The position numbers were made by a program, and so were the translations under genes. Positions 42,272 to 63,768 of a stretch of 64,000 nucleotides of DNA are shown here, piece by piece (position 1 is the stretch's first letter; each line of letters starts with the position of its first letter). Under the pieces are notes generated by a model. The model saw only the letters and a program-made list of their open reading frames with translations, had not been told where the DNA came from and searched no databases. Source of the stretch: Peptostreptococcaceae bacterium VA2 (GTDB lineage Bacteria > Bacillota > Clostridia > Peptostreptococcales > Peptostreptococcaceae); NCBI GenBank assembly GCA_000686145.1, contig JMMB01000007.1:1550001-1614000 (forward strand). The letters are read 5' to 3'.

Positions 42272-43966
42272 ATGCTTAAATCAAAAAAAATGTGTAATGT
42301 AGCATCAGGAAAAGAAAAGGCGAGTAAAGTGCTTAAAAATGCTAAGATAATAAATGTATTTACAGAAGAAATAATAATAGGGGATGTCGCTATTTTAGAT
42401 GATACTATTGTTGGGATAGGGAGTTATGACGGAGAAATAGAAATAGACTGTAAAGGCAAATATGTATGTCCTGGTTTTATAGATGCTCATATGCATATTG
42501 AGTCTACTATGGTAATGCCTATAGAATTATCAAAGCGAGTTATCAAAAGTGGTACAACAACTTTAATTGCAGACCCACATGAGTTGGTTAATGTAAATGG
42601 TGAATCTGCAATAGAATTCTTGTTAGATGCAACAGAAAACATTCCTATGAATATTTATATTATGTTACCATCATCAGTTCCAGCTACCAAATTTGAAACT
42701 AACGGAAGTGAATTTACATCCGATGAAATAAAAAAATTCATAAATCACCCTAGAGTATTGGGTCTAGGAGAAGTTATGTGTTTTAACGATGTAATAGATG
42801 CACAAGCAGAAATATTAACAAAGCTTTCTTATAGTAAAGATAAAATTTCAGATGGGCATGCTCCAAACACACATGGGAAAAGACTGCAAGCTTATGCATG
42901 TTCTGGAGTAGAAACTGATCATGAGTGCACTAATTTTGAAGAAGCTTATGAAAAAGTTCAAGCAGGATTAAAGATATTGATTAGAGAAGGTAGTGCTGCT
43001 AAAAATTTAGATGCTATAGTAAGCGGGTTACTTAAATCTAATTTACCAATAGATAATTTTATGTTTTGTACAGATGATAAGCATTTAGATGATATAGAAA
43101 AAGAAGGACATATTAAACATAATATTAAGCGTGCCATAGATTTAGGCATGAATCCGATTAAAGCAATAAAGATGGCTACTTACAATAGTGCTAATACTTA
43201 TGGTCTAAAAAGAATGGGAGCTATAGCACCAGGATATAAAGCAGATATAGTTATATTAGATAACTTAGAAAATATAGATGTTTTAGATGTATATAAAGAT
43301 GGTGACTTAGTAGATGATACTACATTTGATAAATGTAGATATGATATTAAAGATTTAGATATGTTAAAAACTGTGTATTTTAAAGAAATAACAGTTGATA
43401 AATTAAAATTAGAAGCGAAAGATAAAAATCACATTATAGAGATAGTTCCACATCAAATACTTACTAACCACTTATTTGAGGAACTGCCACAAGAAAATGG
43501 ATATTTCAAGCCTAACGAAGAATATTCAAAAATTTGTGTAATAGAAAGACATAGAGGCACAGGCAATGTTGCTGTAGCACCTCTTAAAGGTTTTAAAATA
43601 AAAAATGGTGCGATTGCAACTACTGTAGCTCATGATTCACATAATATTATTGTAGCTGGTGACAATGATGAAGATATATTGTTAGCTATTAATCATTTAA
43701 ATGAAATACAAGGGGGATATGTCATAACTTCTAATGGAAAGGTTGTAGGAGAACTAGAACTTCAAATAGGAGGGCTTATAAGTCAATTAAGCGGACATGA
43801 AGTTCAAGAAATTACTAGCCAAATGATAAACACAGCAAGAAATATGGGAGTACCCAAACATACTGATCCATTTATAACATTATCATTTATGGCATTACCA
43901 GTTATTCCACAAATACGTTTAACAGATATAGGATTATTTGATGTGGATTTATTTGAATTAATGTAA
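42272..43966 (+). CDS. ade: Adenine deaminase
   Basis: Converts adenine to hypoxanthine and ammonia, 564 aa. Metal ligands of the amidohydrolase fold are all present: HMH in IDAHMHIES, Glu in LGEVMCF, His in SDGHAPNTHGK, His in ETDHECT, and TDD in FCTDDKHLDD. The C-terminal domain has IERHRGTGN and VAHDSHNIIV. Single gene with its own strong promoter. It supplies hypoxanthine to the xanthine pathway encoded further right. Confidence 0.93.
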   Translation: MLKSKKMCNVASGKEKASKVLKNAKIINVFTEEIIIGDVAILDDTIVGIGSYDGEIEIDCKGKYVCPGFIDAHMHIESTMVMPIELSKRVIKSGTTTLIADPHELVNVNGESAIEFLLDATENIPMNIYIMLPSSVPATKFETNGSEFTSDEIKKFINHPRVLGLGEVMCFNDVIDAQAEILTKLSYSKDKISDGHAPNTHGKRLQAYACSGVETDHECTNFEEAYEKVQAGLKILIREGSAAKNLDAIVSGLLKSNLPIDNFMFCTDDKHLDDIEKEGHIKHNIKRAIDLGMNPIKAIKMATYNSANTYGLKRMGAIAPGYKADIVILDNLENIDVLDVYKDGDLVDDTTFDKCRYDIKDLDMLKTVYFKEITVDKLKLEAKDKNHIIEIVPHQILTNHLFEELPQENGYFKPNEEYSKICVIERHRGTGNVAVAPLKGFKIKNGAIATTVAHDSHNIIVAGDNDEDILLAINHLNEIQGGYVITSNGKVVGELELQIGGLISQLSGHEVQEITSQMINTARNMGVPKHTDPFITLSFMALPVIPQIRLTDIGLFDVDLFELM

Positions 43967-46510: not shown

Positions 46511-47845
46511 TTACTTTTCTTCCTTTAAGGCTATATTAAGCACTAATGCAGCTATAGTACCAGTGCTTATACCAGATGCAAATAGCATTTGAAGGCTATT
46601 TGGTAAATTAGATAATAAGTCAGGTCTAGTAGTTATTCCAAGACCTAAAGCAATAGAAACGGCTATAATAAGAAGGTTTCTATTATTCATACTAACTCTG
46701 CTTAAAGTTTTCATACCGCTAGCAGCAACAACACCAAACATAACAATACCAGCTCCACCTAATACGGGACTAGGAATAGAGGCAACTATAGCACCAAGTT
46801 TAGGAAATATTCCAAGTAACATCATTATAATACCTGCCATAATAACTACATGTCTACTAGCAACTCTAGTCATAGGAATAAGTCCAACATTTTGACTGAA
46901 AGAAGTATTAGGTCCAGCTCCAAAAAATCCTGCTATGAAGCTTCCAATACCATCAGCCAAAACGCCTCTACTTAAATCTTCACTAGTAGGTGTTTTTTGT
47001 GAAGCTTCTCCAACAGCTATCAAACATCCAACTGTTTCTATAGTAGTCACCAAGTAGGCTATTATAAAAGGAACAACACCTGCTAGGCTAAACTTGATTC
47101 CGTGTTCTAATAGTAATGGAATACCTGGAATACCTATAAAGCTAGCTTCTTTTATAGGTGTAAAATCAACAAGACCTAAAGCAATACAAATTAAGTATCC
47201 TAAAAACATACCTATAAGAATAGATGCGCTACTAAATATGCCTCTACCATATCTGTTTAATAACACAACTATAATCATAACGACTAAGGATACACTGATA
47301 TTAGTTATATTTCCATATGTAGGGGAAGCAATGCCACCTGCACACCAATCCATAGTGACAGGAATTAAAGTAAGTCCTATAAGTGTAACAACAGTACCGG
47401 TAACAACAGGTGGGAAAAACTTCATAAGTGGTTTTATAAACCTACTTAAAATAATTTCAATGAATGAACCCAGTATTGTAGCACCAAATATTCCGCCAAG
47501 TCCTAGGGTACTACCTACAGCTATAGAAGGACCAACAAATGTAAAGTCAGTACCCATTATACAAGGAAGCCTTGAACCTATCTTTCTAACTCCTCTAGCT
47601 TGAATTATAGTTGCAATGCCTGCTACAAATATTGCAGCACTTACCATCATAGCACTTGATTGAATATCAAGACCTAGTGAGCTACTAACAACTAACGGAA
47701 CGGCAACAATACCTCCGAAAGCTGCTACAATATGTTGAAATCCTAGAAGTATAGAAAGTTGTAGATTTGGTTTATCATTAATTTGATAAAGCAGTTCGCA
47801 ACTTTCTACTTCTTTTATCATTTGAGAAGAATCAATTTTACTCAT
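46511..47845 (-). CDS. NCS2 xanthine/uracil permease
   Basis: 444 aa, about 13-14 helices. The NAT signature reads QNVGLIPMTRVASR, with upstream GAGPNTSF and the CIMGTDFTFVGPSIAVG block. Imports a nucleobase by proton symport. The signature and neighbourhood favour xanthine or urate over uracil. It is transcribed in the same direction as the cyclase gene upstream (about 90 nt gap), divergent from the purine operon. Confidence 0.88.
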   Translation of the reverse strand: MSKIDSSQMIKEVESCELLYQINDKPNLQLSILLGFQHIVAAFGGIVAVPLVVSSSLGLDIQSSAMMVSAAIFVAGIATIIQARGVRKIGSRLPCIMGTDFTFVGPSIAVGSTLGLGGIFGATILGSFIEIILSRFIKPLMKFFPPVVTGTVVTLIGLTLIPVTMDWCAGGIASPTYGNITNISVSLVVMIIVVLLNRYGRGIFSSASILIGMFLGYLICIALGLVDFTPIKEASFIGIPGIPLLLEHGIKFSLAGVVPFIIAYLVTTIETVGCLIAVGEASQKTPTSEDLSRGVLADGIGSFIAGFFGAGPNTSFSQNVGLIPMTRVASRHVVIMAGIIMMLLGIFPKLGAIVASIPSPVLGGAGIVMFGVVAASGMKTLSRVSMNNRNLLIIAVSIALGLGITTRPDLLSNLPNSLQMLFASGISTGTIAALVLNIALKEEK

Positions 47846-47936: not shown

Positions 47937-48629
47937 TTATTCTTCTAAAAGTGCAATTGCTCTTATTGGGGAACCAGATCCGCCTCTTATTTTAAGGGGA
48001 AGTCCAAAATATAAAAATCTTTTATTAACAACTTTGTCTAAGTTACATAAATTTTCACTATTGGTTATATCATATTCTCCACAAACTAAATGGCCAGAAA
48101 AATTCAAATCATCAGGATGGTCTATAGCTGGAGCGTCAACACCTATATTTACAACACCACAATCAGCTAAATATTTAGCAGCTTCATAGCTAAGACCAGA
48201 ATACTCTGTTTGCCACTTGTCAGTTTTAAAATTTCTATCATAGTGACCAGTATACATCAATACTATGTCCCCTTTACTTAATTCTTCTTTAGCACTTTTT
48301 AAAGCATTTTTTATATCATCGGTTTCTATGTATCTACTGTAAGGAATATTTGATAAATCTATACAAATAGCACTTCCAAAAAAGTATTCTAAAGGCATAT
48401 TTTCAATAGTCTCACCACTTGGTTTATATTCCCATACTGCATCACAGTGAGTACCTCCATGTTCACTTATAAGTAAATTTCTAGCTGAAAATCCTAAACT
48501 TTTGCTTCCTGTTTGTTTCATATTTTCCTCGTGTGTCATATTAGTCATTATAAAGGTTGGTTGATGCATAGGGAAAACAGACATCCCTTGAAATATTTCT
48601 TGTGATAAATCAATAACTTTTAAACTCAT
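47937..48629 (-). CDS. Cyclase-family (kynurenine-formamidase-like) metal hydrolase
   Basis: 230 aa. The metal-binding signature HGGTHCDAVWEY and the later VDAPAIDHPDD are those of the cyclase/arylformamidase family, which opens cyclic amides or hydrolyses formamides. In the purine pathway the matching step would be ring opening of 4-imidazolone to formiminoglycine. That assignment is an inference from context. Start ATG with GGAGG in front. It is divergent from the formiminotransferase operon. Confidence 0.75.
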   Translation of the reverse strand: MSLKVIDLSQEIFQGMSVFPMHQPTFIMTNMTHEENMKQTGSKSLGFSARNLLISEHGGTHCDAVWEYKPSGETIENMPLEYFFGSAICIDLSNIPYSRYIETDDIKNALKSAKEELSKGDIVLMYTGHYDRNFKTDKWQTEYSGLSYEAAKYLADCGVVNIGVDAPAIDHPDDLNFSGHLVCGEYDITNSENLCNLDKVVNKRFLYFGLPLKIRGGSGSPIRAIALLEE

Positions 48630-48868: not shown

Positions 48869-49813
48869 ATGGAAAAAAAACAATTTGTATTAGCTGTACC
48901 GAATTTTAGCGAAGGTAGAAGAAAAGACATTATAGAAAAAATAGTTGATGAAGTAAGAAAAATTAAAGGTGTAAAACTAGTAAGCTATGAACCAGAAGCA
49001 GATTTTAATAGAACTGTTGTTACTTTTATAGGAGAACCAGATCCTGTAAAAGAAGCATTGGTTAATATGGCAGCAAAATCTGCACAACTTATAGATATGA
49101 GAAAACATAAAGGAACTCATCCAAGAATAGGTGCTCAAGATACACTTCCTATATTTCCATTTAAGGATATTACAATAGAAGAATGTGTTACTTTAGCAAA
49201 AGAAATAGGAAATGAGTTACATAAAAAAACACAAATACCAGTATTCTTTGCAGGAGAAGCTGCAAGTAATGAAGATAGAAAAGCATTTGCATATATAAGA
49301 AAAGGTCAGTATGAAGGCTTAAGAGATTTATTAAAAGAAACTAAGAATAATAAAGAAAGAATTGATGAGTACGATAATAGAAAACCAGATTTAAGTATAG
49401 ATGGATTAATAAGTGAAAGCGCAGGAGCCACTATATGTAGCGCAGAATGTGATGGCTTGACTGCTTATAATATATTTTTAGGAACTGAAAATATTCAAAT
49501 AGCTAAAGAAATAGCTAAGGGACTTAGAGGACCTACTGGAGGTTTTTCTACAGTAAGAGCTGTTGGAATAAAATTCCCTGAAAGGGAAGGCGTAGTAGTC
49601 TCAATGAATTTACTTGATTGTTCAAAAACTCCTATGCACAGAGCTTTTGAATTTGTAGAAAGAGAAGCTAAAAGATATGGGGTTATGGTTACAGGAACTG
49701 AACTTGTAGGACCGATAAAATTAGATTATATATTAGATAGTTTTCAATACTTCTTTAGATTAGAAGGATTTAATAAAGAACAAATTTTAGAAACTCATTT
49801 AATGGATATGTAG
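48869..49813 (+). CDS. Formiminotransferase (formimino-glycine/glutamate:THF)
   Basis: 314 aa, equal to the formiminotransferase half of FTCD, without the cyclodeaminase half. Motifs: VPNFSEGRR, RTVVTFIGEPDPV, and the catalytic-His block HKGTHPRIGAQD (about 82-93). Transfers the formimino group to tetrahydrofolate. Beside purine-ring enzymes the donor is probably formiminoglycine rather than formiminoglutamate. First gene of the rightward operon. Confidence 0.88.
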   Translation: MEKKQFVLAVPNFSEGRRKDIIEKIVDEVRKIKGVKLVSYEPEADFNRTVVTFIGEPDPVKEALVNMAAKSAQLIDMRKHKGTHPRIGAQDTLPIFPFKDITIEECVTLAKEIGNELHKKTQIPVFFAGEAASNEDRKAFAYIRKGQYEGLRDLLKETKNNKERIDEYDNRKPDLSIDGLISESAGATICSAECDGLTAYNIFLGTENIQIAKEIAKGLRGPTGGFSTVRAVGIKFPEREGVVVSMNLLDCSKTPMHRAFEFVEREAKRYGVMVTGTELVGPIKLDYILDSFQYFFRLEGFNKEQILETHLMDM

Positions 49814-49824
49814 GGGGAGAAAAA

Positions 49825-51372
49825 ATGATAGATGTAATTATAAAAAATGCAAGAATACCTCAAGGTGATGAAAGTGTACTTACAAATATATTAGTTAAAG
49901 ATGAAAAAATAACAGGATTTTCAGATGATATAAGCATGATACAAGCTAAAGAAGTTATAGATGCAAATGGAAATTTAACACTTCCAGGATGTATAGATTC
50001 TCATACTCATCTTATGTATCAAGGATTTCCACATAGAGAAAATTTCTTAAGTGGAACAGCTGCAGCTGCTACAGGAGGGGTTACAACTATAATAGATATG
50101 CCTTGTTGTTCAGTACCATCTGTTAGAAGCGTTGAACAATTAGAAACAAAACTTTCTATATGTGGACCACAAGCAGTTGTGGATTATGCTATGTGGGGTG
50201 GAGTTACAGGAGAGGATGTTAGAGAAGGTTGGATGTACAATGTTAAAGAACAAGCAGATTATGGAGTAGTTGCATTTAAAGTTTATATGACTCCATCTGT
50301 TCCAACTTATCCAAGAGTTACAGATCCTGAAATGTTTGAATGCTTTAAGGCAGTAGCTAAAACTGGTTTACCAATAGGTATACATGCAGAAAACTTTGCT
50401 ATGTGCGATTTTTATGTAAATAGATTTAGAGAAGAAGGAAGACTAGATGGCCCAGCTTGGGCAGAAGCTAGAATGGAGTTAGCAGAAAAAGTGGCTATAG
50501 AACTTGGAATAAGTTTTGCAGAAGCTAGTGGAGCTAGACTTCATATAGTTCATATGAGTACTGGAATAGGTGCAAAACTTGTAAAAGAAGCTAAGATAAA
50601 AGGAATAAATGTAACAAGTGAATCTTGTCCTCATTACTTAACATTAAATTATCAAGAATCAATGAGTAAATATGGACCACTTGCAAAAATAGCACCACCA
50701 CTAAGAACTAAAAAAGATAATGAGGAACACTGGAAAGGTATAAATGATGGAAGCATAGATTTTATAGCTACAGATCATGCTCCATATGAAATAGAAAGTG
50801 AAAAGCATAAAGACGGAATGAATATATGGACTTCATTCCCAGGAATACCAGGGGTTGAAACTATGGTTCCAGTTGTTGTAAGTGAAGGATACAATAAAGG
50901 AAGAATATCTTTAAGCAAGTTAGTAGATATATTAAGTACAAATGTAGCTAAACATTATGGATTATATCCTAAAAAAGGTGCTTTAAATATAGGTTCTGAT
51001 GCAGACTTTACAATATTAGATTTAGAAAAAGAATGGACTATAGACCCTAAAACTATGGTATCTATGTGTGGATACACTCCACTTGAAGGAATGAAGTTAA
51101 AAGGTAAGGTTTATAAAACTGTAGTTAGAGGTAACTTGGTGTACCAAGACGAAGAAGAGGGAATTTTAAGTAAATTAGAAAATTATGATGTGGTATTTAA
51201 TAACCCAGAAGAATTAACTAGTGCGGAATACAAAGTTAGCTATAGAAAACAACATCCAGAAGTTATAGTTGACCATATTAAAAATATAAAAGGGATAATG
51301 GTTAAACCTGGATTTGGTAAATTTACAAAAAGAGTACAAATAATGAAATTAGATAAAAAAATAACTTATTAA
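49825..51372 (+). CDS. Dihydropyrimidinase/allantoinase-like amidohydrolase
   Basis: 515 aa amidohydrolase. Seen: DSHTHL (metal HxH), the carboxylated Lys in VVAFKVYMTPS, HIVHMSTG, ESCPHYLTL and the Asp in FIATDHAPYE. It should hydrolyse a cyclic amide. The best step is xanthine to 4-ureidoimidazole-5-carboxylate (inference). About 70 residues after 445 extend past the usual end of the family and could be a compartment-targeting tail. 11 nt after the formiminotransferase gene. Confidence 0.85.
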   Translation: MIDVIIKNARIPQGDESVLTNILVKDEKITGFSDDISMIQAKEVIDANGNLTLPGCIDSHTHLMYQGFPHRENFLSGTAAAATGGVTTIIDMPCCSVPSVRSVEQLETKLSICGPQAVVDYAMWGGVTGEDVREGWMYNVKEQADYGVVAFKVYMTPSVPTYPRVTDPEMFECFKAVAKTGLPIGIHAENFAMCDFYVNRFREEGRLDGPAWAEARMELAEKVAIELGISFAEASGARLHIVHMSTGIGAKLVKEAKIKGINVTSESCPHYLTLNYQESMSKYGPLAKIAPPLRTKKDNEEHWKGINDGSIDFIATDHAPYEIESEKHKDGMNIWTSFPGIPGVETMVPVVVSEGYNKGRISLSKLVDILSTNVAKHYGLYPKKGALNIGSDADFTILDLEKEWTIDPKTMVSMCGYTPLEGMKLKGKVYKTVVRGNLVYQDEEEGILSKLENYDVVFNNPEELTSAEYKVSYRKQHPEVIVDHIKNIKGIMVKPGFGKFTKRVQIMKLDKKITY

Positions 51373-51421: not shown

Positions 51422-52033
51422 ATGCCAAGACATGGGATTGTTGTTATAGATATGTTAAATGATTTTGTTGGGGAGAATGCTTCTTTAAGATGTCCAGGAG
51501 GAGAACAAATAGTACCTAAGTTACAAAAATTATTTACTTGGGTAAGAGAAAGAAATGCAAGAGGGCTTGATGATATTCAATTAATACATGTGCAAGAAGC
51601 TCATAGAAAAAATGATGCAGACTTTAGGGTAAGACCACGCCACGCAGTTAAAGGAACTTGGGGTTCTGATTTTATAAAAGAGTTATATCCTCAAGGCGAG
51701 GAATATACTATACCAAAGAGAAGACATAGTGCATTTGCACATACTGACTTAGATTTATATTTAAGAGAAGAAAATTTAGATACAGTAGTAGTTACTGGTG
51801 TTTGGACTAATGTATGTGTAAGAAGTACAGCGAGTGATGCATTATATAATGCTTACAAAGTTATAACTTTAAGTGATGGTGTACATTCTAAGAATGATGA
51901 AATGCACGAAGCTGGTCTTAGAGATTTAAGTATATTTACAAAAGTTATGCCAATTGATGAATATATACAGGCTTGGGAGAACGGACTTGATCCATGGGTT
52001 GGTGGTGGAGACCAAGAAAATAAAGTGAAGTAA
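51422..52033 (+). CDS. Isochorismatase-like cysteine hydrolase
   Basis: 203 aa. Catalytic triad of the family: Asp in VVIDMLNDF (about 10), Lys in TIPKRRHSAF, and Cys in VTGVWTNVCVRSTASDA. Members with this layout include ureidoacrylate and N-carbamoyl amidohydrolases. Removal of the carbamoyl group from ureidoimidazole-carboxylate fits the pathway (inference). The extended WGSDFIKELYP segment is usual. Confidence 0.82.
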   Translation: MPRHGIVVIDMLNDFVGENASLRCPGGEQIVPKLQKLFTWVRERNARGLDDIQLIHVQEAHRKNDADFRVRPRHAVKGTWGSDFIKELYPQGEEYTIPKRRHSAFAHTDLDLYLREENLDTVVVTGVWTNVCVRSTASDALYNAYKVITLSDGVHSKNDEMHEAGLRDLSIFTKVMPIDEYIQAWENGLDPWVGGGDQENKVK

Positions 52034-52107: not shown

Positions 52108-52662
52108 ATGAAAATAATAGTGGGTATATCAGGAGGAAGTGGTGCAATTTATGCACTTGGAATATTAAAAGTTTTAAAGGATTTAAATGTTGAAACTCAT
52201 TTAGTAGTATCCAATATGGGAGAATATGTAATAAACCATGAGTGCGGAGTTAATATAGACGAGCTAAAAGAAATGGCTGATTGTTATCATGAAAACTATG
52301 ATCTAGCAGCTCCAATTGCAAGTGGATCATTTAAAACTGATGGAATGATTATAGTACCTTGTTCTATGAAAACACTAGCAGCAATTACTATGGGATATAG
52401 TGATAGTTTACTTACAAGAGCTGCTGATGTTTGCATTAAGGACAAGAGAAGGCTTGTAATTGTACCAAGAGAAACTCCACTTAGTTCTATACATCTTGAA
52501 AATATGCTTAGACTTTCAAACTTAGGTGTAACTATAATGCCACCGACACCAGGATTTTATAATCACCCACAAGATTTAAGTGATATAGTAACTTCAATAG
52601 TTGGGAGAAGCTTAGATTTATTATATATAGAACATGATTTACTTAAAAGATGGGGTGATTAA
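52108..52662 (+). CDS. ubiX: UbiX-like flavin prenyltransferase
   Basis: 184 aa. Prenylates FMN to make the prFMN cofactor for UbiD enzymes. Motifs: VGISGGSGAIYALGIL, ASGSFKTDGMIIVPCSMKTLA, RRLVIVPRETPLS and MPPTPGFY. Immediately upstream of ubiD, its functional partner. Confidence 0.92.
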   Translation: MKIIVGISGGSGAIYALGILKVLKDLNVETHLVVSNMGEYVINHECGVNIDELKEMADCYHENYDLAAPIASGSFKTDGMIIVPCSMKTLAAITMGYSDSLLTRAADVCIKDKRRLVIVPRETPLSSIHLENMLRLSNLGVTIMPPTPGFYNHPQDLSDIVTSIVGRSLDLLYIEHDLLKRWGD

Positions 52663-52663
52663 T

Positions 52664-54004
52664 ATGGAAACTCAAATGTTAAGGTACACTTTAGAAAAGT
52701 TAGAAAAATTAGGGCATATTAAAACTTGTACTAAAAAAGTAGATACTAAATTTGAACTTGGAGCAGTACTAAGATACTTTGATAACGAAGTTCCAATAAT
52801 ATTTAATAATATAAAAGAACATAAAGTGCCTTTGGTTGGAGGTCTTTATGGAAATAGACAAATATTTTATGATTTAATGGATATGAATAAAGAAGATAGG
52901 ATATTTAAATTTATGGATGCGATAGCTAATCCTAAATCTGTAAGAAAAATTAGTACTGGCCCTATTAAAGAAAATATTATAACTAAAAATATAGATGTAA
53001 AAAAATTATTTCCAATTCCAACATCACATGAAAAAGACTCGTTAAGTTTTATAACTTCTGGAATGCTTATTGTAAAAGACCCAGAAACTAATGATACTCA
53101 TATGGCAGTTAGAAGATTTCAAGTAAATTCAAAAACAAATATAAGTGCATTAGTATCAGGGGCGTCTCCTCATTTAAGAAAAATCATAAAAAAAAGTGAA
53201 GAAAATAATAAACCTATAGAATGTGCAGTGGTATTAGGTTATGATGCTGAATATTTAATAGCATCTCAAATAAGTTCTTCAAAATATGGACTTGATAAGC
53301 ACAAGGTGTATAGTGCCCTAAAAGGTGAAGAATTAGAAGTTGTAAAGTGCCATAGTGTAGATATAGAAGTTCCAGCTTATTGTGAAATAGTGTTAGAAGG
53401 AGAAATAGTTCCTAACAAAAAGGTAGTAGAAGGTCCTTTTGGAGAATTAATGGGATACTATGGTGAAGTAGCACCTAATCCGGTTATGGAAATAAAAACA
53501 ATAATGCATAGAGATAAACCAATATTTCAACATGCATTCCCTTGTAGAGAAGAACACTTATCAAATGGGCTTATAAGAGAAGCAGAGATGTATAGTATAT
53601 TAAATAGTGTTGTAGATGTAGATGATGTAAATGTAACTGTTGGAGGAGGATGTAGACTTCATGCAATAGTTAGTATAAATAAAAATAATGAAGGTGATGG
53701 AAAAAGTGCAATTTTATCATCACTTGGAAGTAGTAAGGATTTAAAACATGTAGTAGTAGTAGATACTGATGTTGATATATATAATTGTAAAGATATTGAA
53801 TTTGCACTTTCATCTAGAGTACAAGGTTCAGATGATGTAGTTATAATTAAAAATGCATTAGGAAGTGGTCTTGAAGCATCTCATGTTTATAAAGGTCTTA
53901 GTGATAAAATAGGAATAGATGCCACAAAACCATTAGATGTAGATTTGTTTGATAGAGCTATAATACCAGAATATGAAAATATAAATATAAATGATTATTT
54001 TTAA
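52664..54004 (+). CDS. UbiD-family prFMN-dependent decarboxylase
   Basis: 446 aa. Family features: a central ECAVVLGYDAEYLIAS region, GPFGELMGYYGEV (with the active-site Glu) and a long C-terminal domain. With UbiX it should decarboxylate an aromatic or heteroaromatic acid; 4-aminoimidazole-5-carboxylate to 4-aminoimidazole fits the cluster (inference). ATG at 52664 follows GGGGTGATT; an in-frame ATG 30 nt earlier lies inside ubiX and lacks a site. Confidence 0.9.
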   Translation: METQMLRYTLEKLEKLGHIKTCTKKVDTKFELGAVLRYFDNEVPIIFNNIKEHKVPLVGGLYGNRQIFYDLMDMNKEDRIFKFMDAIANPKSVRKISTGPIKENIITKNIDVKKLFPIPTSHEKDSLSFITSGMLIVKDPETNDTHMAVRRFQVNSKTNISALVSGASPHLRKIIKKSEENNKPIECAVVLGYDAEYLIASQISSSKYGLDKHKVYSALKGEELEVVKCHSVDIEVPAYCEIVLEGEIVPNKKVVEGPFGELMGYYGEVAPNPVMEIKTIMHRDKPIFQHAFPCREEHLSNGLIREAEMYSILNSVVDVDDVNVTVGGGCRLHAIVSINKNNEGDGKSAILSSLGSSKDLKHVVVVDTDVDIYNCKDIEFALSSRVQGSDDVVIIKNALGSGLEASHVYKGLSDKIGIDATKPLDVDLFDRAIIPEYENININDYF

Positions 54005-54043
54005 GACTAATAAATAAAACCTACTTCAAGAGGGGTGAAGAAT

Positions 54044-54304
54044 TTGAATGCTTTAGGGATAGTAGAAGTAAAAAGTATGATAGGAGCGATAGTAGCAGCA
54101 GATACTATGTTAAAATCTGCAGATGTAGATTTAATTGATATAAATTTAGTAGGATCAGGTATAGTAGCAGCGATAGTAAGGGGCGACGTAGCAGCAGTAC
54201 AAGCGGCAGTTGAAAATGGAAAAGAAAGTGCTAGTAAAGTAGCACAAATAATATCAACAAATGTCATAGCAAGACCTCATGATGAAGTAAGCAAAATATT
54301 ATAG
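54044..54304 (+). CDS. BMC-H microcompartment shell protein 1
   Basis: 86 aa single BMC domain forming hexameric shell tiles. It has NALGIVEVKSMIGAIVAADTML, the RGDVAAVQAAVENG strand-helix and the terminal ARPHDEV of the family. The pore loop reads NLVGSG. TTG at 54044 is 8 nt from AGAGGGG; the GTG at 54035 overlaps that site and is rejected. Confidence 0.92.
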   Translation: MNALGIVEVKSMIGAIVAADTMLKSADVDLIDINLVGSGIVAAIVRGDVAAVQAAVENGKESASKVAQIISTNVIARPHDEVSKIL

Positions 54305-54316
54305 GTGGTGAAGCAA

Positions 54317-54649
54317 GTGGCGAGTTCATTAACTAAAACGATAATGAATAATATATCAAAGAAGGCTCTTAATAAAAATGATAGCAAATATTTTGAAACT
54401 AATAGCGTAAGCGTTAATCATATAAATGAAAAAGAAGAAGAGTTTTTAAAAAATATACTACATAAAAATAATACTAAAATAAATTTAAACTCTATAAAAA
54501 ATAAGCAACAACCTAAAAATAACAATTCAAAAATAACAATTCAAAGTCTAAAAAGCTTTAGTGAAAAAACAAATAACAACTCTGTTAAAGAAAAACCTAA
54601 AGATAAACAAAATAAAAATATGATTAGCTTAAAAGAGTTAGCTAAATAA
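54317..54649 (+). CDS. Low-complexity BMC-associated protein A, 110 aa
   Basis: GTG at 54317, 8 nt after AGGTGG (an upstream GTG at 54305 overlaps the site). No fold I recognise; rich in Asn, Lys and Ser, so probably largely disordered. The N-terminus SLTKTIMNNISKK can form an amphipathic helix and matches the N-terminus of the protein at 55285. Short hydrophobic blocks recur: INLNSIKN, ITIQSLKS and a C-terminal MISLKELAK. Encoded between two shell genes. A cargo adaptor or scaffold is a plausible guess. Confidence 0.7.
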   Translation: MASSLTKTIMNNISKKALNKNDSKYFETNSVSVNHINEKEEEFLKNILHKNNTKINLNSIKNKQQPKNNNSKITIQSLKSFSEKTNNNSVKEKPKDKQNKNMISLKELAK

Positions 54650-54660
54650 GGGGGATAACG

Positions 54661-54984
54661 ATGAGAAAAGCCCTAGGAATGATAGAATCTATAGGAATTA
54701 CAACTGCAATAGCTGCCCTAGATAGTGCGAGCAAAGCAGCAGATATTACGTTAATTGGTTTTGATAAAGTTATTGGTGTAGAAAAATCAGTAAGTATTAC
54801 CATTCACATAGCAGGAGAAGTAGCAGCAGTAAACGCAGCAATAGAAGCAGGGGTAGAAGCAGGAAACAAAGTGGGAAGAGTTGTTTGTAGTAAAACTATA
54901 CCAAGACCACATGAAGAAGTAGATTTTTTAATAAAAGAATTTGAAAAGAATTTAAAAGAAAAAGAAGCTAAAAAAAGTAAATAA
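54661..54984 (+). CDS. BMC-H microcompartment shell protein 2
   Basis: 107 aa. BMC domain (KALGMIESIGITTAIAALD, GEVAAVNAAIEAG, IPRPHEEV) with a C-terminal Lys/Glu-rich extension of about 20 residues. The pore loop KVIGVEKS is unusual, without the common GSG, so it may pass a different metabolite. Confidence 0.92.
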   Translation: MRKALGMIESIGITTAIAALDSASKAADITLIGFDKVIGVEKSVSITIHIAGEVAAVNAAIEAGVEAGNKVGRVVCSKTIPRPHEEVDFLIKEFEKNLKEKEAKKSK

Positions 54985-55004: not shown

Positions 55005-55280
55005 ATGGGTCAAGCATTAGGAATGATAGAAACTAAAGGATTAGTAGGTGCTGTTGAAGCAGCAGATGCTATGGTGAAATCTGCAAATGTAACTTTAATG
55101 GGATATGAAAAAATAGGATTTGGGTTAGTAACAGTTATGGTAAGTGGAGATGTAGGTGCTGTAAAAGCAGCAGTTGATGCAGGAAGTGAAGCAGCAAGAA
55201 ATGTTGGAGAGCTTCATTCAGTTCATGTAATACCAAGACCACACTCTGAAATTGAAAGAGTTATGTTAAGCAGAGAATAA
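55005..55280 (+). CDS. BMC-H microcompartment shell protein 3
   Basis: 91 aa canonical PduA/CcmK-like shell protein: [33 protein letters not shown] pore strand, [23 protein letters not shown]. Strong TAGGAGGTATA ribosome site. The closest of the three to the bulk shell type. Confidence 0.94.
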
Positions 55281-55284
55281 GTAA

Positions 55285-55653
55285 ATGAAAAATAAAAAAA
55301 ACTTAACCGATTCAATATTAAAAAATATAGGAGAGAGTTTAAAAAAAAATGTTGCTACAACAAATAAATTTATAAAAAATGAAGATGTTAAGTCAAATTC
55401 ATTTATAATGGTTCCTACAAATCACCATAACATAGATGAAATATTAAAACTGTTAAACAATTTTAAAGAAGATAATGTATCTGAAGACATTAAAGAAGAA
55501 ACTAAAAAATCCGTAATAACTTTAAGTGATATATTAAACTCTAATCAAGAAAAATTAATTATACCAAAATATTCTATAATAACACCGATGGCAAAAGACT
55601 ATATAAAACAAAAGAAAATAAAAGTGATTTTTACTGAAAATAAAGAACAATAG
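55285..55653 (+). CDS. BMC-associated protein B with EutT-like terminal motif, 122 aa
   Basis: The N-terminus NLTDSILKNIGESLKK is an amphipathic helix matching protein A (LTxxIxxNI). A middle SVITLSDILN resembles its repeats. The C-terminus IITPMAKDYIKQKKIKVIF matches the (I/L)TPxAxxxxxxxxIxIxF motif at the N-terminus of EutT-type proteins and other BMC-associated proteins. Only 4 nt after shell gene 3. No catalytic motif seen. Likely a structural or targeting component. Confidence 0.7.
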   Translation: MKNKKNLTDSILKNIGESLKKNVATTNKFIKNEDVKSNSFIMVPTNHHNIDEILKLLNNFKEDNVSEDIKEETKKSVITLSDILNSNQEKLIIPKYSIITPMAKDYIKQKKIKVIFTENKEQ

Positions 55654-55663
55654 GGGAGAAATT

Positions 55664-55936
55664 ATGCAAATAGGAAAAATAATAGGAACAGTAGTTGCAA
55701 CTAGAAAAGATGAGTCATTAGTAGGTAGCAAGTTAATGATAACTCAACCGTTAAATTTTAGAAATGAAATAGAGGGAAAACCCCTGATTGCAGTAGATAC
55801 AGTAGGAGCAGGAATTGGTGAATTAATTATATACACAGAAGGAACAGCTGCTAGAAATGCAACTAAAAAATATGATTCATCAATAAATGCTGCAATAATA
55901 GGAATTGTTGATAACATAGATGTATGGGAGGAGTAA
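55664..55936 (+). CDS. BMC-P vertex protein (EutN/CcmL)
   Basis: 90 aa pentamer-forming protein that closes shell vertices: MQIGKIIGTVVATRKDESL, SKLMITQPL, VDTVGAGIGELIIYTEG and an IGIVDNIDVW ending. The only vertex gene in the cluster. Confidence 0.94.
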   Translation: MQIGKIIGTVVATRKDESLVGSKLMITQPLNFRNEIEGKPLIAVDTVGAGIGELIIYTEGTAARNATKKYDSSINAAIIGIVDNIDVWEE

Positions 55937-55938
55937 CA

Positions 55939-57741
55939 TTGAAGTATATAAAGCAAGCAATGGAATATAAAGAGTTAATAGATACTCTTATGAGCGATAA
56001 ACACCATGCAGATATTGTTTTGTATGGAGGAAATGTAGTAAATGTATTAACTAGAGAAGTATATAATGCAGATATTGCTATAAAGGGAAAGTATATATTA
56101 TTAGTTGGAGATTGTGAAGATTTAATAGGTGAGAATACTATAGTTGTAGACGTATCTGGTAAATATTTATCTCCTGGGTTTATAGATTCTCATATGCATT
56201 TTGAGAGTAGTATGTTAACGGTAACTGAATTTTCTAGACTTTCAATACCATCAGGAACAACAACACTAATAGCAGATCCTCACGAAATAGGAAATGCATT
56301 AGGACCGGTTGGAATGAAAGCTATGGCTGATGAAGCGAATGTATTACCAAATCATGTTAGATTTGTAGTGCCAGCACTTACTCCAGATTGTCCAAATTTA
56401 GAAACAGCAGGCGTAGATGTAAGTTCTAAGGATATGGAGGACTTATTAAACTATAAAAATATAATAGGTATAGGTGAACTTCAAGGATTTAGCAATGCAA
56501 AACATGTATACAAAAATACACCAGAAATAATAACTGATTTATTAGCATCAACTACATATGCAAAGAGTATAGGAAAAGTAGTGGATGGAAATGCACCTGA
56601 TTTGTTTGGTAAAGAACTTGCTGCACATATAGTGTGTACTGGTGGAAAATGTTCTTGTCATGAAACTACAACCAAAGAAGAGTGTGTAGAAAAACTAAGA
56701 CAAGGTGTGTATGTATTTATGAGAGAAGGCTCAACTCAAAAGAATATGGGTGAATGTATAAAAGCTATAACTGAAGAAAAATTAGATTCTAGAAGATGTA
56801 TATTAGCAACTGATGATATGGTAGCAGAAGACCTTGAAAAATTAGGGCATATGAATGAAATCGTAAAGAGAACTATAAATCAAGGGGTAGATCCTATTGA
56901 AGCGATACAAATGGTAACAATAAACCCAGCAACATATTTTGGTTTAGAAGATAGAGGTATATTATCACCTTCGAAAGTTGCAGACATAGCTATAATAAAT
57001 GACTTGAAAGAAATGGATGTTGAGGCTGTATTTATAGAAGGAAAATTAGTAGCATCAGACAAAGAACTTTTAGTTCCTATGCCAAAATATACTTATCCAG
57101 ATTCTGTTAAGAATTCTGTAAAAAGAGAAAAACTAGTAAATAAAGATTTAGAAATAAGAAGTGATGAAAAGAAAGTAATTGTAAGGGCTATAAAAGTAAT
57201 ACCTGACCAAAACTTGACAGAATGTTTAGAAGAAGCAACTACTGTTAAAAATAGTGTAGTAGAAGCTGATGTATCTAATGATTTATTATATATAGCTTGT
57301 GTTGAAAGATATGGAAGAAATAATAATATAGGTAAGGCATTTGTAAAAGGTTTTGGACTTAAAAAAGGAGCTTTTGCAGAAAGTGTTGCACATGATACTC
57401 ATAATATAACTGTTGTTGGAACTAACATAGCTGATATGGTAGTTGCAGTTAATAAAGTTATAGAAATGGGTGGAGGAATAGCTGTTGTAAATAATCAAAG
57501 AGTGCTAGAAGAATTAAGACTTCCAGTTGGAGGGCTTATAACTGATGAACTTACTGGTAGCGAAGTTAGTGAAAAAATAGTATCTCTTGAAAAAACTGTA
57601 AGCAAAGACTTAGGCGGAAGTATACATGCACCTTTCATGCATTTATCCTTCTTAGCACTATCTACAAGCCCTAAGTGGAAGATTACTGATAAAGGGCTTA
57701 TCGATGTTAACAATTTTGAGATACTAAGCCCAATTATTTAG
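55939..57741 (+). CDS. Divergent adenine-deaminase-family enzyme of the BMC operon
   Basis: 600 aa amidohydrolase related to Ade. It keeps HMH (IDSHMHFES), Glu (IGELQGF) and TDD (ATDDMVAED), but the usual metal-ligand His of DGHAP is Asn (VDGNAPDL), and the second His region reads TGGKCSCHETT instead of TDHEC. The intact Ade at 42272 keeps both. So the metal site and substrate probably differ. Deamination of 4-aminoimidazole fits its place in the operon (inference). TTG at 55939 follows GGGAGGAG; the ATG at 55924 lies within that site. Confidence 0.85.
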   Translation: MKYIKQAMEYKELIDTLMSDKHHADIVLYGGNVVNVLTREVYNADIAIKGKYILLVGDCEDLIGENTIVVDVSGKYLSPGFIDSHMHFESSMLTVTEFSRLSIPSGTTTLIADPHEIGNALGPVGMKAMADEANVLPNHVRFVVPALTPDCPNLETAGVDVSSKDMEDLLNYKNIIGIGELQGFSNAKHVYKNTPEIITDLLASTTYAKSIGKVVDGNAPDLFGKELAAHIVCTGGKCSCHETTTKEECVEKLRQGVYVFMREGSTQKNMGECIKAITEEKLDSRRCILATDDMVAEDLEKLGHMNEIVKRTINQGVDPIEAIQMVTINPATYFGLEDRGILSPSKVADIAIINDLKEMDVEAVFIEGKLVASDKELLVPMPKYTYPDSVKNSVKREKLVNKDLEIRSDEKKVIVRAIKVIPDQNLTECLEEATTVKNSVVEADVSNDLLYIACVERYGRNNNIGKAFVKGFGLKKGAFAESVAHDTHNITVVGTNIADMVVAVNKVIEMGGGIAVVNNQRVLEELRLPVGGLITDELTGSEVSEKIVSLEKTVSKDLGGSIHAPFMHLSFLALSTSPKWKITDKGLIDVNNFEILSPII

Positions 57742-60118: not shown

Positions 60119-60276
60119 CCTCTAAATTACTTATAAATTAAAGTTTTAAAGTTGTACAAAAAAGTTTTTAAAAGGTACTATAAAAAACTAAAAAATCATA
60201 TATTTTAAGTAACCAAAAATTTAATCAATATGAGATTAGTATAGTAAAAGAAGTAAATTTTATTTTGGAGGAGAAT

Positions 60277-61140
60277 ATGGTTAAAGAAGTATTTAAAGTT
60301 AAAAGTTTAGAAAATGCGCTACATATACTTGAAGTCAATAAATATAGAGCAAAAGTTATAGCGGGTGGAACCGATTTAGTTGTTGATATAAAAAATAATA
60401 AGTTTGATAAAGAGATTTTAATTGATATATCAGATATAAAACAGCTTAAGTTTATAGAAGATGAAGGCGATATTATGAAAATAGGTGGGTGTACTACACT
60501 TAATGAAATTATAAAATCGCCAAAGATAAACTCTAGTTTACAAGGTTTAAAAAAAGCATGTAGTTTAGTGGGTTCACCTCAAATAAGAAGTAGAGCCACA
60601 ATAGGTGGAAATATATGCAATTCATCACCAAGTTCAGATTTAATACCTCCACTTTTAGCTTTAGATGCTAAGGTATGTATACAAAGTAAAAATTCTAAGA
60701 GAAAAGCATACTTAAAGGATATATTATTAGATAAAAACAAAATCAAGTTAAATGAAGATGAAATTTTAAAGTACATAGAATTTAAAAATTTAAATCAAAA
60801 TCAAGTGCTATCTTTTGTTAAACTCGGTTTTAGAAAATCATTATCAATATCTAAAATCTCATGCAGTGTATTGCTAGAAATAGAAGAAAATAAATTCGAA
60901 AATATGAATATAGCATTAGGTGCATTAAGTAAAATAGCTATGCGAGAACATGAAGTTGAACTATATTTAAAAGGAAAATCTATTAATCAAAATACTATCA
61001 ATAAAGCATTAGATATAGTGCAGGAAAGCATTAGTGAGCGATTAAAAAATAGAGGAAGTGTAGGATTTAAATCTCATGCAGTTAAAGGTGTATTAAAGCA
61101 AGCTATATATGAAGGCATAAGCTTATATAATATTAATTAA
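60277..61140 (+). CDS. Xanthine dehydrogenase-type FAD subunit
   Basis: 287 aa CoxM/XdhB-type subunit. FAD motifs AGGTDLVVDIKN (about 30-41) and TIGGNICNSSPSSDLIPPLLAL (about 108-129, split here for length: TIGGNICNSS then PSSDLIPP). The ATG at 60277 follows TTGGAGGAG; the TTG at 60265 lies within that site. First gene of a three-subunit hydroxylase operon. Confidence 0.92.
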   Translation: MVKEVFKVKSLENALHILEVNKYRAKVIAGGTDLVVDIKNNKFDKEILIDISDIKQLKFIEDEGDIMKIGGCTTLNEIIKSPKINSSLQGLKKACSLVGSPQIRSRATIGGNICNSSPSSDLIPPLLALDAKVCIQSKNSKRKAYLKDILLDKNKIKLNEDEILKYIEFKNLNQNQVLSFVKLGFRKSLSISKISCSVLLEIEENKFENMNIALGALSKIAMREHEVELYLKGKSINQNTINKALDIVQESISERLKNRGSVGFKSHAVKGVLKQAIYEGISLYNIN

Positions 61141-61159
61141 AAATAGTAGGAGAAAATTC

Positions 61160-61618
61160 ATGAAAAATATTAATTTAAATATAAATGAAACTATATATAA
61201 AGTAGATATAAAAGAGGATGATAGGCTTATAGATGTTCTTAGAGATACCCTAAAACTAACTGGAACCAAAGAAGGTTGTGGGGAAGGCGAATGTGGTGCT
61301 TGTTCTGTTATTATGGATGAAGAACTAGTCAACTCTTGTTTGGTACTTGCTTTTCAAGCAGATGGGAAGAAAATAACAACTATTGAAGGTGTAAAAGATG
61401 AGTATATAAAGCAAGCATTTATTGACGGAGGAGCAGTACAATGTGGGTTTTGTACGCCCGGTATGATACTTAGTGGAAAATCTATATTAGATAAAAATGC
61501 TTCTCCAAGCAAAGAAGAAATAAGAGCTGGTATATCAGGTAATTTGTGTAGGTGCACAGGTTACAATAAGATAGTAGATGCTATATATTTAGCATCAACT
61601 GTAAGGAGAGATAAGTAG
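61160..61618 (+). CDS. Xanthine dehydrogenase-type 2Fe-2S subunit
   Basis: 152 aa. The plant-type cluster CGEGECGACSV with a later Cys (NSC) and the second cluster CGFCTPGMI with GNLCRCTGYNKI are the two 2Fe-2S sites of the family. Carries electrons from molybdenum to FAD. The stop overlaps the start of the next gene by one base. Confidence 0.95.
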   Translation: MKNINLNINETIYKVDIKEDDRLIDVLRDTLKLTGTKEGCGEGECGACSVIMDEELVNSCLVLAFQADGKKITTIEGVKDEYIKQAFIDGGAVQCGFCTPGMILSGKSILDKNASPSKEEIRAGISGNLCRCTGYNKIVDAIYLASTVRRDK

Positions 61619-63768
61619 TGAAGAGTGTTGGAAAAAATATAAAAAGAGTAGATGCTTACGACAAAGTTAATGGAAAAGCCATATACCCGCAAGACATATA
61701 TTTTGAAGATATGCTATATGGAGAAACTTTAAGGTCTAATAAACCTCATGCATACATAGAACTTGATATAAGTGAAGCTAAAAAGATAGAAGGCGTCATA
61801 AAGATATTTACAGCAAAGGATGTACCTTATAATCATCATGGTGTAGTATTTAAAGACAATGAGGTATTTTGTGATAAAAAGGTAAGAAGGATAGGAGATC
61901 CGATAGCTTTTGTTGTAGCTATAAATAAAGAAATTGCAAAAAAAGCGTTAAAGAATATAAATGTAAAATATAAAGAAATAGAAGCTGTATTTGATCCAAT
62001 AAAAGCAATGAAAGAAAATAGCCCAAAGGTACATGACAATGATACTAACATAGTTCATCATTTTAAACTTAGAAATGGAAATGTTGAAAGGTCGTTTGAA
62101 GATTGTGATGTAATAGTTGAAAACGAATATGTTGTTCCACAGGTTGACCATGCTTTTTTACAACCTGAAAGTGGAGTAGCAAAAATTGATGAAAAAGGCA
62201 AAATAATATTATACACTGCAACTCAATATCCACATTTTGATGTATGTGAAATAGCACAGGCATTGCAAATGGATGAAAAACAAGTGAAAATAATAAACTG
62301 TGCAGTTGGAGGTGCTTTTGGAGGAAGAGAAGATATAACAATGCAAATTCATCTATCTCTTGCAGCAAAAGTATTAAAAAGACCAATTAAAACTACCTAT
62401 TCTAGAGAAGAGTCATTTATAGCACATTCAAAAAGACATTCAATGATTATGAAATATAAAACCGGAGCAACTAAAGATGGAAAATTAAAAGCATTAAAAG
62501 TTACTATAATAGGGGACACTGGTGCCTATGCATCCTGGGCAATAAATGTATTAAGAAAAGCAGGAGTACATGCAACTGGACCTTATGAAATAGAAAATGT
62601 ATGTGTAGATAGTTACGCAGTATATACAAATAATCCATTTAGTGGCGCTATGAGAGGCTTTGGAGCAACACAAGTTCCAATAGCTTATGAACAACAAATG
62701 GATATAATAGCAAATAAGCTAAATATAGACCCTATAGAATTTAGACTAAAAAACATATTTAAAAAAGGAAGCAAAACAGCTACTAATCAAATATTAAAAG
62801 AAAGTGTACCACTTGAAAAATGTATAAATGAAGTTAAAAAACATATGGATTTTAGTAAAAAGGGATGCGGTATAGGAATAATGTTTTATGGAACAGGATA
62901 TGGGAATGGATTTCCGGACGTTTCAAATGCAATAGCTAAAATAAATCAAGATGGAAAAGTAGAAATATATATTGGAGCAACTGAAGTAGGGCAAGGTGCA
63001 AAAACTATAATGAGTCAAATAGGAGCAGAGGTTTTAAAAATTAATGTAGAGGATATAATATTTGTAAACGAAGATACAGAAATAACTCCAGACTCTGGAA
63101 CAGCAGCGGCAAGTCGTCAAACTTACAATAGTGGAAATGCTGTAAAAATAGCTTGTGAAAAGCTAAAAGACGAAATAAATAAAAAATATGATATAAACAA
63201 CTGTAATTTAAAAGACGTATATAAGAATATTGATAAAGAACTTTTAATTAAAGAAGGATCTTTTAAAGCATATTCAACAATGATGGATGAAGAAACGGGT
63301 ATTGGAAACCCATATTGGCCATATACTTTTGGAGCTTGTGGAGTTGAAGTTGATGTAAACGAAGAAACTGGAGAAATTAAAATATTAAATGCAGTTGTAG
63401 CACAAGATGTAGGAAAAGCAATAAATCCTCATTTAATAGAAGGTCAAATAGATGGAGGCTTTGCTATGGGTGTTGGGTATACTTTAATGGAAGATTTAAA
63501 TGTTGTAAATGGAGAAATTAAAAATAACAGATTATCTAAATATATTATACCAACAGCACTAGATACAATAGACTTTAAGAAAATAATAGTAGAAGATGAG
63601 GAAAGTTCTGCACCGTTTGGAGCAAAGGGAATAGGTGAACCAGTAATGGTATATGTAGCCCCTGCAATTTTAAATGCAATCTCTAGTGCTAGTGGAATTA
63701 GGGTGAAAAAATTACCTGCGACACCTGATAATATAATTAAAAATATAAAAGAAAAAATGAAAATTTAA
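61618..63768 (+). CDS. Xanthine dehydrogenase-type molybdenum subunit
   Basis: 716 aa catalytic subunit with GTG start (TAGTG overlap). Molybdopterin motifs: VGGAFGGRED, GAMRGFGATQ, GATEVGQGAKT, and the catalytic Glu in GAKGIGEPVMVY near the C-terminus. Expected to oxidise hypoxanthine to xanthine, or to reduce urate to xanthine, in the anaerobe. Substrate assignment rests on the purine neighbourhood. Confidence 0.92.
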   Translation: MKSVGKNIKRVDAYDKVNGKAIYPQDIYFEDMLYGETLRSNKPHAYIELDISEAKKIEGVIKIFTAKDVPYNHHGVVFKDNEVFCDKKVRRIGDPIAFVVAINKEIAKKALKNINVKYKEIEAVFDPIKAMKENSPKVHDNDTNIVHHFKLRNGNVERSFEDCDVIVENEYVVPQVDHAFLQPESGVAKIDEKGKIILYTATQYPHFDVCEIAQALQMDEKQVKIINCAVGGAFGGREDITMQIHLSLAAKVLKRPIKTTYSREESFIAHSKRHSMIMKYKTGATKDGKLKALKVTIIGDTGAYASWAINVLRKAGVHATGPYEIENVCVDSYAVYTNNPFSGAMRGFGATQVPIAYEQQMDIIANKLNIDPIEFRLKNIFKKGSKTATNQILKESVPLEKCINEVKKHMDFSKKGCGIGIMFYGTGYGNGFPDVSNAIAKINQDGKVEIYIGATEVGQGAKTIMSQIGAEVLKINVEDIIFVNEDTEITPDSGTAAASRQTYNSGNAVKIACEKLKDEINKKYDINNCNLKDVYKNIDKELLIKEGSFKAYSTMMDEETGIGNPYWPYTFGACGVEVDVNEETGEIKILNAVVAQDVGKAINPHLIEGQIDGGFAMGVGYTLMEDLNVVNGEIKNNRLSKYIIPTALDTIDFKKIIVEDEESSAPFGAKGIGEPVMVYVAPAILNAISSASGIRVKKLPATPDNIIKNIKEKMKI

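Follow-up and report, generated by a model that had tools for sequence, protein, structure and literature searches.

A deaminase-like gene in a BMC operon

What does an adenine deaminase (Ade)-like protein do in an operon of BMC shell genes, and is it still an Ade when an asparagine stands where a metal-ligand histidine is expected? The question is posed by a gene, here called XauE, in the window, i.e. the whole 64,000-nucleotide stretch of DNA from Peptostreptococcaceae bacterium VA2 that was analysed. XauE was found where the original prediction had placed it (55939..57741, forward strand) and encodes an Ade-family amidohydrolase of 600 aa from a TTG, or of 605 aa from an alternative upstream ATG at 55924 in the ORF listing. 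Because a ribosome-binding-like GGAGGAG lies between the two, the TTG at 55939 looks the better start; residue numbers given here nevertheless count from ATG 55924 (subtract 5 for the TTG). The motifs quoted for XauE are all present, namely HMH (H90, H92), GE (E185), VDGNAP (N223), KCSCHET (C243, C245, H246) and TDD (D297), as are SDGHAP and ETDHEC in an adenine deaminase at 42272..43966 (forward strand) that by sequence search and alignment is 38% identical to XauE and keeps all six ligands. Computed from ATG 55924, the N223 codon, at the position of the strand-5 metal-ligand His, occupies 56590..56592, and C243-S244-C245-H246, with Cys at 243 and 245 and the strand-6 His retained, occupies 56650..56661 (both forward strand). 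These two genes are the clear Ade-like genes of the genome, which holds two further weak matches (E 3e-4 and 5e-4).

It had been proposed that the DGHAP histidine is a metal ligand and that the paralogue has Asn in its place, a view upheld by the ligand spacing of YerA, by the solved Ade 3NQB, which aligns a His at the position of N223, and by the Asn present in 95/95 XauE proteins. In the accessible text of PMC12133300, the YerA metal ligands, placed with AlphaFold 3, are H87, H89, E179, H210, H231 and D283 (spacing 2, 90, 31, 21, 52). The corresponding spacing is 2, 92, 29, 21, 51 in the window's Ade and 2, 93, 38, 23, 51 in XauE, where the extra length between ligands represents insertions, and since this agrees with the ligands named for YerA, N223 can be assigned to the strand-5 ligand position. 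The five remaining Ade ligands are retained in XauE and, with the strand-6 His (H246) among them, a single ligand has been lost.

In other respects the protein has the build of an Ade. Both the amidohydrolase barrel and the C-terminal Adenine_deam_C domain are present (Pfam; fold match), and the closest fold match of its structure model, which has a mean pLDDT of 83 and contains no metals, is 3NQB. The NCBIfam Ade equivalog TIGR01178 scores window XauE at 489 against a 472.5-bit cut-off, its missing strand-5 ligand notwithstanding; orthologues straddle this value, with 440-469 in five other XauE proteins and 497 in one.

Asparagine for histidine throughout the XauE clade

How widely is the replacement shared? 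An alignment of 193 sequences, left from 196 once identical cores and sequences of 480 aa or less had been dropped, has Asn at 223 in 95/95 distinct XauE proteins and in 0/98 other Ade-family proteins. The latter are a non-random sample: the 70 matches used from one Ade-family search comprise 30 loci cut from the best matches and 40 chosen lower-scoring ones, 7 of which proved to be XauE; from loci L005-L053 the set omits XauE and includes only the Ade-like L047-L049. The 95 XauE proteins are 56-100% identical to the window protein and the 98 others 29-42%; at strand 5 the latter have 96 His, one Ser and one Cys. HxH, the bridging Glu, the strand-6 His and the strand-8 Asp are invariant in 95/95 XauE proteins. 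The complete two-His second-metal site of the binuclear amidohydrolases, which we take to be the superfamily's subtype I, is not found in XauE, one His being Asn. In the wider order, 45 of 297 genomes have, among the matches listed, a XauE orthologue of at least 58% identity; between this level and the Ade proteins, which start at 40% or below, the matches listed leave a gap.

FastTree groups the 95 XauE proteins as a single clade (local support 0.977, stem 0.53), and midpoint rooting makes the Ser protein (L218) its sister. The same gene, seen as L239 8845-10674, lies near xanthine dehydrogenase-like genes. Under the rule used, four columns separate XauE from the others: I183 (94/95), Q187, which follows the bridging Glu by two residues and is Met in Ade, N223 and H235, which is His in 95/95 XauE proteins and Tyr in 92/98 of the others. 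Comparison with two orthologues gives dN/dS values of about 0.07 and 0.09, indicating that XauE is under purifying selection, and the invariance of the Asn down to 56% identity argues for function rather than decay. The clade-wide change of the active site is thus genuine, and the suggestion that a metal ligand was lost in a protein with a role other than that of Ade is supported by this invariance, by purifying selection and by gene context.

The same cannot be said of the cysteine pair, which had been read as part of a signature and of a new metal site. C243 is present in only 45/95 XauE proteins; C245 is present in 93/95, and a Cys at that position also occurs in 9/98 non-XauE proteins, so that these counts leave both readings unsupported. 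The two remaining XauE proteins carry Asp at 245, which is also the most frequent residue at this position among the other 98. Copies in which Asp replaces the Cys before the strand-6 His occur in L160 and L163, from two purine fermenters, one being the lone copy and one the BMC copy. Nor does the DGN motif depend on a BMC: a BMC-less subclade (7/80 loci, best 80 of 582 matches) keeps DGN, which is a property of the whole XauE clade, with and without BMC. An N-terminal helix (model residues 3-23) was considered as a BMC targeting tag, a reading that found no support, the aligned stretch being present in BMC-less L034 and L035 as well.

The operon and its counterparts in other genomes

The window operon is the known XAU/BUF1 xanthine BMC, whose neighbours of XauE (BMC shell, UbiD/UbiX, amidohydrolase, amidase and formiminotransferase) are all present. 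On the forward strand, profile matches identify a formiminotransferase of the FtcD family (48869..49813), a UbiX flavin prenyltransferase (52108..52662) and a UbiD decarboxylase (52634..54004), and Pfam identifies BMC-domain shell proteins at 54035..54304, 54661..54984 and 55005..55280 and a EutN/CcmL (BMC-P) shell protein at 55664..55936, directly upstream of XauE. Two further forward-strand genes are given their steps tentatively, a cyclic amidohydrolase of the allantoinase/dihydropyrimidinase group (49825..51372) as the proposed xanthine amidohydrolase and an isochorismatase-family amidase resembling RutB/biuret hydrolase (51422..52033) as the proposed ureidoimidazole-carboxylate hydrolase. 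Divergent from the operon and upstream of it, on the reverse strand, is a Cyclase-family (PF04199) hydrolase (47937..48629) that co-occurs with XauE and is the putative 4-imidazolone ring opener. Among the shell genes, small proteins at 54305-54649 and 55285-55653 have no Pfam match above cut-off; at the latter position a protein of ~260-300 aa is encoded in several further clostridial loci, and the one in L036 matches a flavoprotein domain. Farther out are a permease-like gene upstream of the operon (46511-47845) and xanthine dehydrogenase-like genes downstream (60265-63768), all read from translations only, and, downstream of XauE, a guanine deaminase-like gene scoring 374 bits, just under its cut-off of 375.

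Named genomes were scanned with patterns including HMHFES and DPHEIGN, and the best 80 of 582 matches, a sample biased to XauE, come from Clostridia, Bacilli and a few others. BMC genes occur in 71 of these 80 loci; the nine BMC-negative ones are the seven of the BMC-less subclade plus L071 and L086, which are cut by contig ends near XauE. In 71/71 of the loci with a BMC-P gene, XauE starts -178 to +77 bases from the end of that gene, the overlaps partly reflecting ORFs extended to the first possible start. When only fully covered loci are counted, again among the best 80 of 582, UbiD occurs in all 29 from Clostridia and other non-Bacilli, amidohydrolase, amidase and formiminotransferase in 26 each and cyclase in 25; the 31 from Bacilli have UbiD and cyclase in all 31, amidohydrolase and amidase in 21 each and formiminotransferase in 0/31 within the flanks read, this last count speaking against the pathway role proposed for XauE below. 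The seeming absence of the cyclic amidohydrolase from 10/31 Bacilli loci is at least partly an effect of the 10-kb flanks: in L104 (Paenibacillus typhae), the sole such genome tested, the gene is farther out on the same contig. An Ade gene shares the locus with XauE in 23/29 non-Bacilli loci (best 80 of 582), which implies that XauE need not serve as the Ade.

Pairing with a cyclase-family hydrolase and a proposed reaction

Where in the pathway might XauE act? The BMC-less subclade is informative here, because its cyclase gene adjoins XauE in 7/7 loci (in L110 as a fragment cut by a contig end), lying between two XauE copies in L127 (Moorella mulderi) and as the immediate neighbour in the other six. 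These loci have a formiminotransferase in 3/7 and UbiD in 1/7 (32% identity), and at the identity cut they have amidohydrolase in 0/7 and amidase in 0/7 (an L127 amidase reaches 38%). Elsewhere in the six genomes of this subclade, several of which are drafts or metagenome bins, a xanthine-type amidohydrolase occurs in G297, G301 and G602 (62-70%), matches of 33-34% occur in G299 and G300, and G298 has none at cut-off; the best UbiD is 61% in G297, 52% in G602, 43% in G301, 42% in G299 and 29-33% in G298, with none in G300, so that G298 and G300 have no close homologues of UbiD or amidohydrolase. Gene sets of this kind place XauE after decarboxylation, next to ring opening. Two side observations concern the same loci. 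In L127 (5123-11773), two XauE genes flank a purine-type permease and the cyclase and are followed by formiminotransferase and cyclodeaminase genes. In L119 and L125, XauE and cyclase are followed by genes sized as a branched-chain-type ABC transporter, suggesting substrate import; three of these genes are Pfam-confirmed in L125, and those of L119 are recognised by size only.

The pairing extends across the order. Among the matches listed for 297 genomes, XauE occurs in 45, cyclase in 44 and both in 43 (Fisher p about 3e-48, kinship ignored); of the XauE genomes outside the shared 43, G269 (the same as G300) has the cyclase in two frames just under cut-off, and G049 is 79% complete. Such constant company implies joint action, most simply after decarboxylation. 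Isatin hydrolase and other PF04199 enzymes open lactams with a five-membered ring, and as Ade chemistry fits deamination, XauE would be the deaminase and the cyclase-family hydrolase, as its pairing with XauE suggests, the enzyme that opens the imidazolone ring.

We therefore consider it likely that the window gene encodes XauE, the 4-aminoimidazole deaminase of the XAU/BUF1 system, with a second metal site changed by Asn and with the cyclase acting next. Orthology, the clade-wide Asn, gene context and co-occurrence are direct observations; from here on we infer the substrate, the number of metals and the roles of Asn and H235. During anaerobic purine fermentation, XauE would convert 4-aminoimidazole and water to 4-imidazolone and ammonia. 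It would do so while retaining the Ade fold and C-terminal domain as well as a complete first metal site (H90, H92, D297 and the bridging E185), a site that should persist because all of these residues are intact. At the second metal the invariant Asn would replace the strand-5 ligand, leaving E185 and H246, and either the Asn may hold this metal weakly via its side-chain oxygen or XauE may work with one metal. Asn ligands occur in other two-metal enzymes. Together with the clade-fixed Q187 (Met in Ade) and H235 (Tyr in Ade), the Asn might also fit the smaller imidazole ring. The cyclase-family hydrolase would then open the 4-imidazolone, and the formiminotransferase would take over the product. 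A bolder version, offered tentatively and one that we would not expect to hold in full, makes XauE a distinct deaminase class whose Asn-held or absent second metal was fixed once at the clade root and is needed for the small imidazole, with H235 perhaps compensating, and makes XauE, cyclase and formiminotransferase a portable module for imported amino-imidazoles outside the BMC.

Do all XauE proteins then share one substrate? Some genomes carry two copies, which means that a shared substrate is not required of all members. It is conceivable, if rather doubtful, that 4-aminoimidazole is the substrate of the BMC members only and that the BMC-less subclade (~58% identity) uses another amino-imidazole or a related ring, which might be imported, making XauE a family of deaminases. 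Both types occur, with a single copy of each, in Andreesenia-like and Acidaminobacter genomes, BMC-less copies have a purine-type permease (L127, L129) or, in L125, an ABC transporter of the branched-chain type in their vicinity, and the lack of close UbiD and amidohydrolase homologues in G298 and G300 points the same way; against it, signature and ligand residues are common to both types, and in L128 the formiminotransferase beside XauE is 70% identical to that of the window. This idea overlaps the 4-aminoimidazole reading of XauE and, as far as the window gene is concerned, is no rival to it.

Adenine or 4-aminoimidazole?

Could XauE instead act on adenine and simply tolerate an odd ligand, its place in the operon being explained by adenine that feeds into the pathway? 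The score of window XauE above the Ade equivalog cut-off (489 against 472.5) speaks in favour. According to the accessible sections of PMC3519856, C. acidurici, a classical purine fermenter, has three named adenine deaminase genes, yet adenine is not used, and genes for the ring-breaking steps were not found. The genome of C. acidurici 9a (G303) contains three Ade-like genes, as many as were reported and, judged by tag order, at the same map positions, and two of these 'adenine deaminases' are XauE (74% and 70% identity). The 74% copy is near shell, UbiD, UbiX, amidase, amidohydrolase and cyclase genes, none of which is found within the 32 kb read around the 70% copy; no formiminotransferase is seen within the 32 kb read around the 74% copy. 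The third gene (L162 6293-8143) has Cys at strand 5, a separate loss of the His. With two XauE proteins and this Cys protein, none of the three has the usual Ade site, which in an organism that leaves adenine unused argues against adenine as the XauE substrate.

Other members of the family complicate the picture. G. purinilytica grows on adenine, and G304, probably Gottschalkia purinilytica, has only two Ade-like genes, both of XauE type, and no PF00962 deaminase in a profile search in which controls were detected. This speaks against strict specificity of XauE, and one G304 copy may take adenine, or the draft may be without a gene. In the Andreesenia-like G302 and G297 there is an Ade that keeps the strand-5 His, yet A. 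angusta fails to grow on adenine, so adenine growth and the presence of Ade do not go together in this family; adenine growth thus gives mixed evidence on the function of XauE, with C. acidurici, G304 and G302/G297 counting on both sides. With C. acidurici, the separate Ade present in the window and in 23/29 non-Bacilli loci (best 80 of 582) and the strand-5 His kept by 96/98 other family members also argue against adenine, and on these grounds an adenine deaminase reading is unlikely. The substrate of XauE is most likely 4-aminoimidazole rather than adenine.

That XauE is an imidazolonase opening 4-imidazolone, with the cyclase-family protein or another gene as the deaminase, would fit their nearly constant association and the existence of amidohydrolases such as HutI that open imidazolones, but is very improbable given that Ade-family chemistry is the deamination of amino-heterocycles, that lactam opening is what PF04199 enzymes such as isatin hydrolase do, and that no other deaminase candidate was found among 20 scanned neighbours of BMC-less XauE in four loci.

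Relation to known systems

With XauE as the probable 4-aminoimidazole deaminase, what would follow beyond this locus? The label adenine deaminase can be given to XauE proteins, an instance being the C. acidurici account available in PMC3519856. A single diagnostic residue, the Asn that replaces His in DGH, tells the two families apart and could serve to correct annotation and to mend models of purine breakdown, uric acid included. If the metal site really is changed, XauE would provide a natural test of how many metals Ade chemistry needs. The pathway role itself was proposed earlier (the relevant part of PMC6620236); new here are the clade-fixed active-site change, the cyclase pairing and the re-reading of two C. 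acidurici genes as XauE.

The closest known counterpart is Amet_4572. In the accessible part of their paper, Ravcheev et al. (2019) propose xanthine breakdown for the XAU BMC and assign Amet_4572 to step five, the 4-aminoimidazole step (PMC6620236); the same BMC is called BUF1 in the available text of PMC8156839. Window XauE is an orthologue of Amet_4572 by 75% identity and by gene order in G131, which is taken as A. metalliredigens partly on that gene order. The order there fits XauE as Amet_4572 and cyclase as Amet_4587, with six ORFs listed between XauE and UbiD where the tags in the accessible text of PMC6620236 leave room for eight. Operon type, gene and proposed step are thus common to the two systems, and the original prediction that the operon position matches the 4-aminoimidazole step is the best-supported assignment, already in print for Amet_4572 in that part of PMC6620236; its companion statement that few genes of the pathway are assigned is out of date. 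The two accounts differ over the two ring-opening steps, which the available text of PMC6620236 gives to the two hydrolases in the opposite way; by gene pairing these 2019 assignments would be swapped, a correction to the share of each hydrolase in ring opening that can be put to the test. The pathway section of PMC6620236, as far as accessible, does not mention the ligand change.

The accessible text of Li et al. (2025) (PMC12507026) describes a cluster for the same pathway, the xanthinase pathway cluster of Clostridia and Bacilli, whose identification it credits to Tong et al. (2023), with xanthinase kinetics reported as measured. In the literature text covered, which takes in Tong et al. 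(2023) only through Li et al. (2025), no mention of the strand-5 ligand change was found, and 4-aminoimidazole deaminase activity is not stated for XauE.

Comparison with Ade-family enzymes places XauE close to, and apart from, the classical type. Ade itself (TIGR01178; 3NQB, Atu4426) shares with XauE the fold, the C-terminal domain and five of six ligands; unlike 3NQB, XauE has the strand-5 Asn, insertions around strands 4-5, Q187 and H235. YerA, an N6-methyladenine/adenosine deaminase in the portion of PMC12133300 at hand, is likewise an Ade-family enzyme with a differing substrate and has a predicted two-metal site, but it keeps all six ligands, whereas XauE has five.
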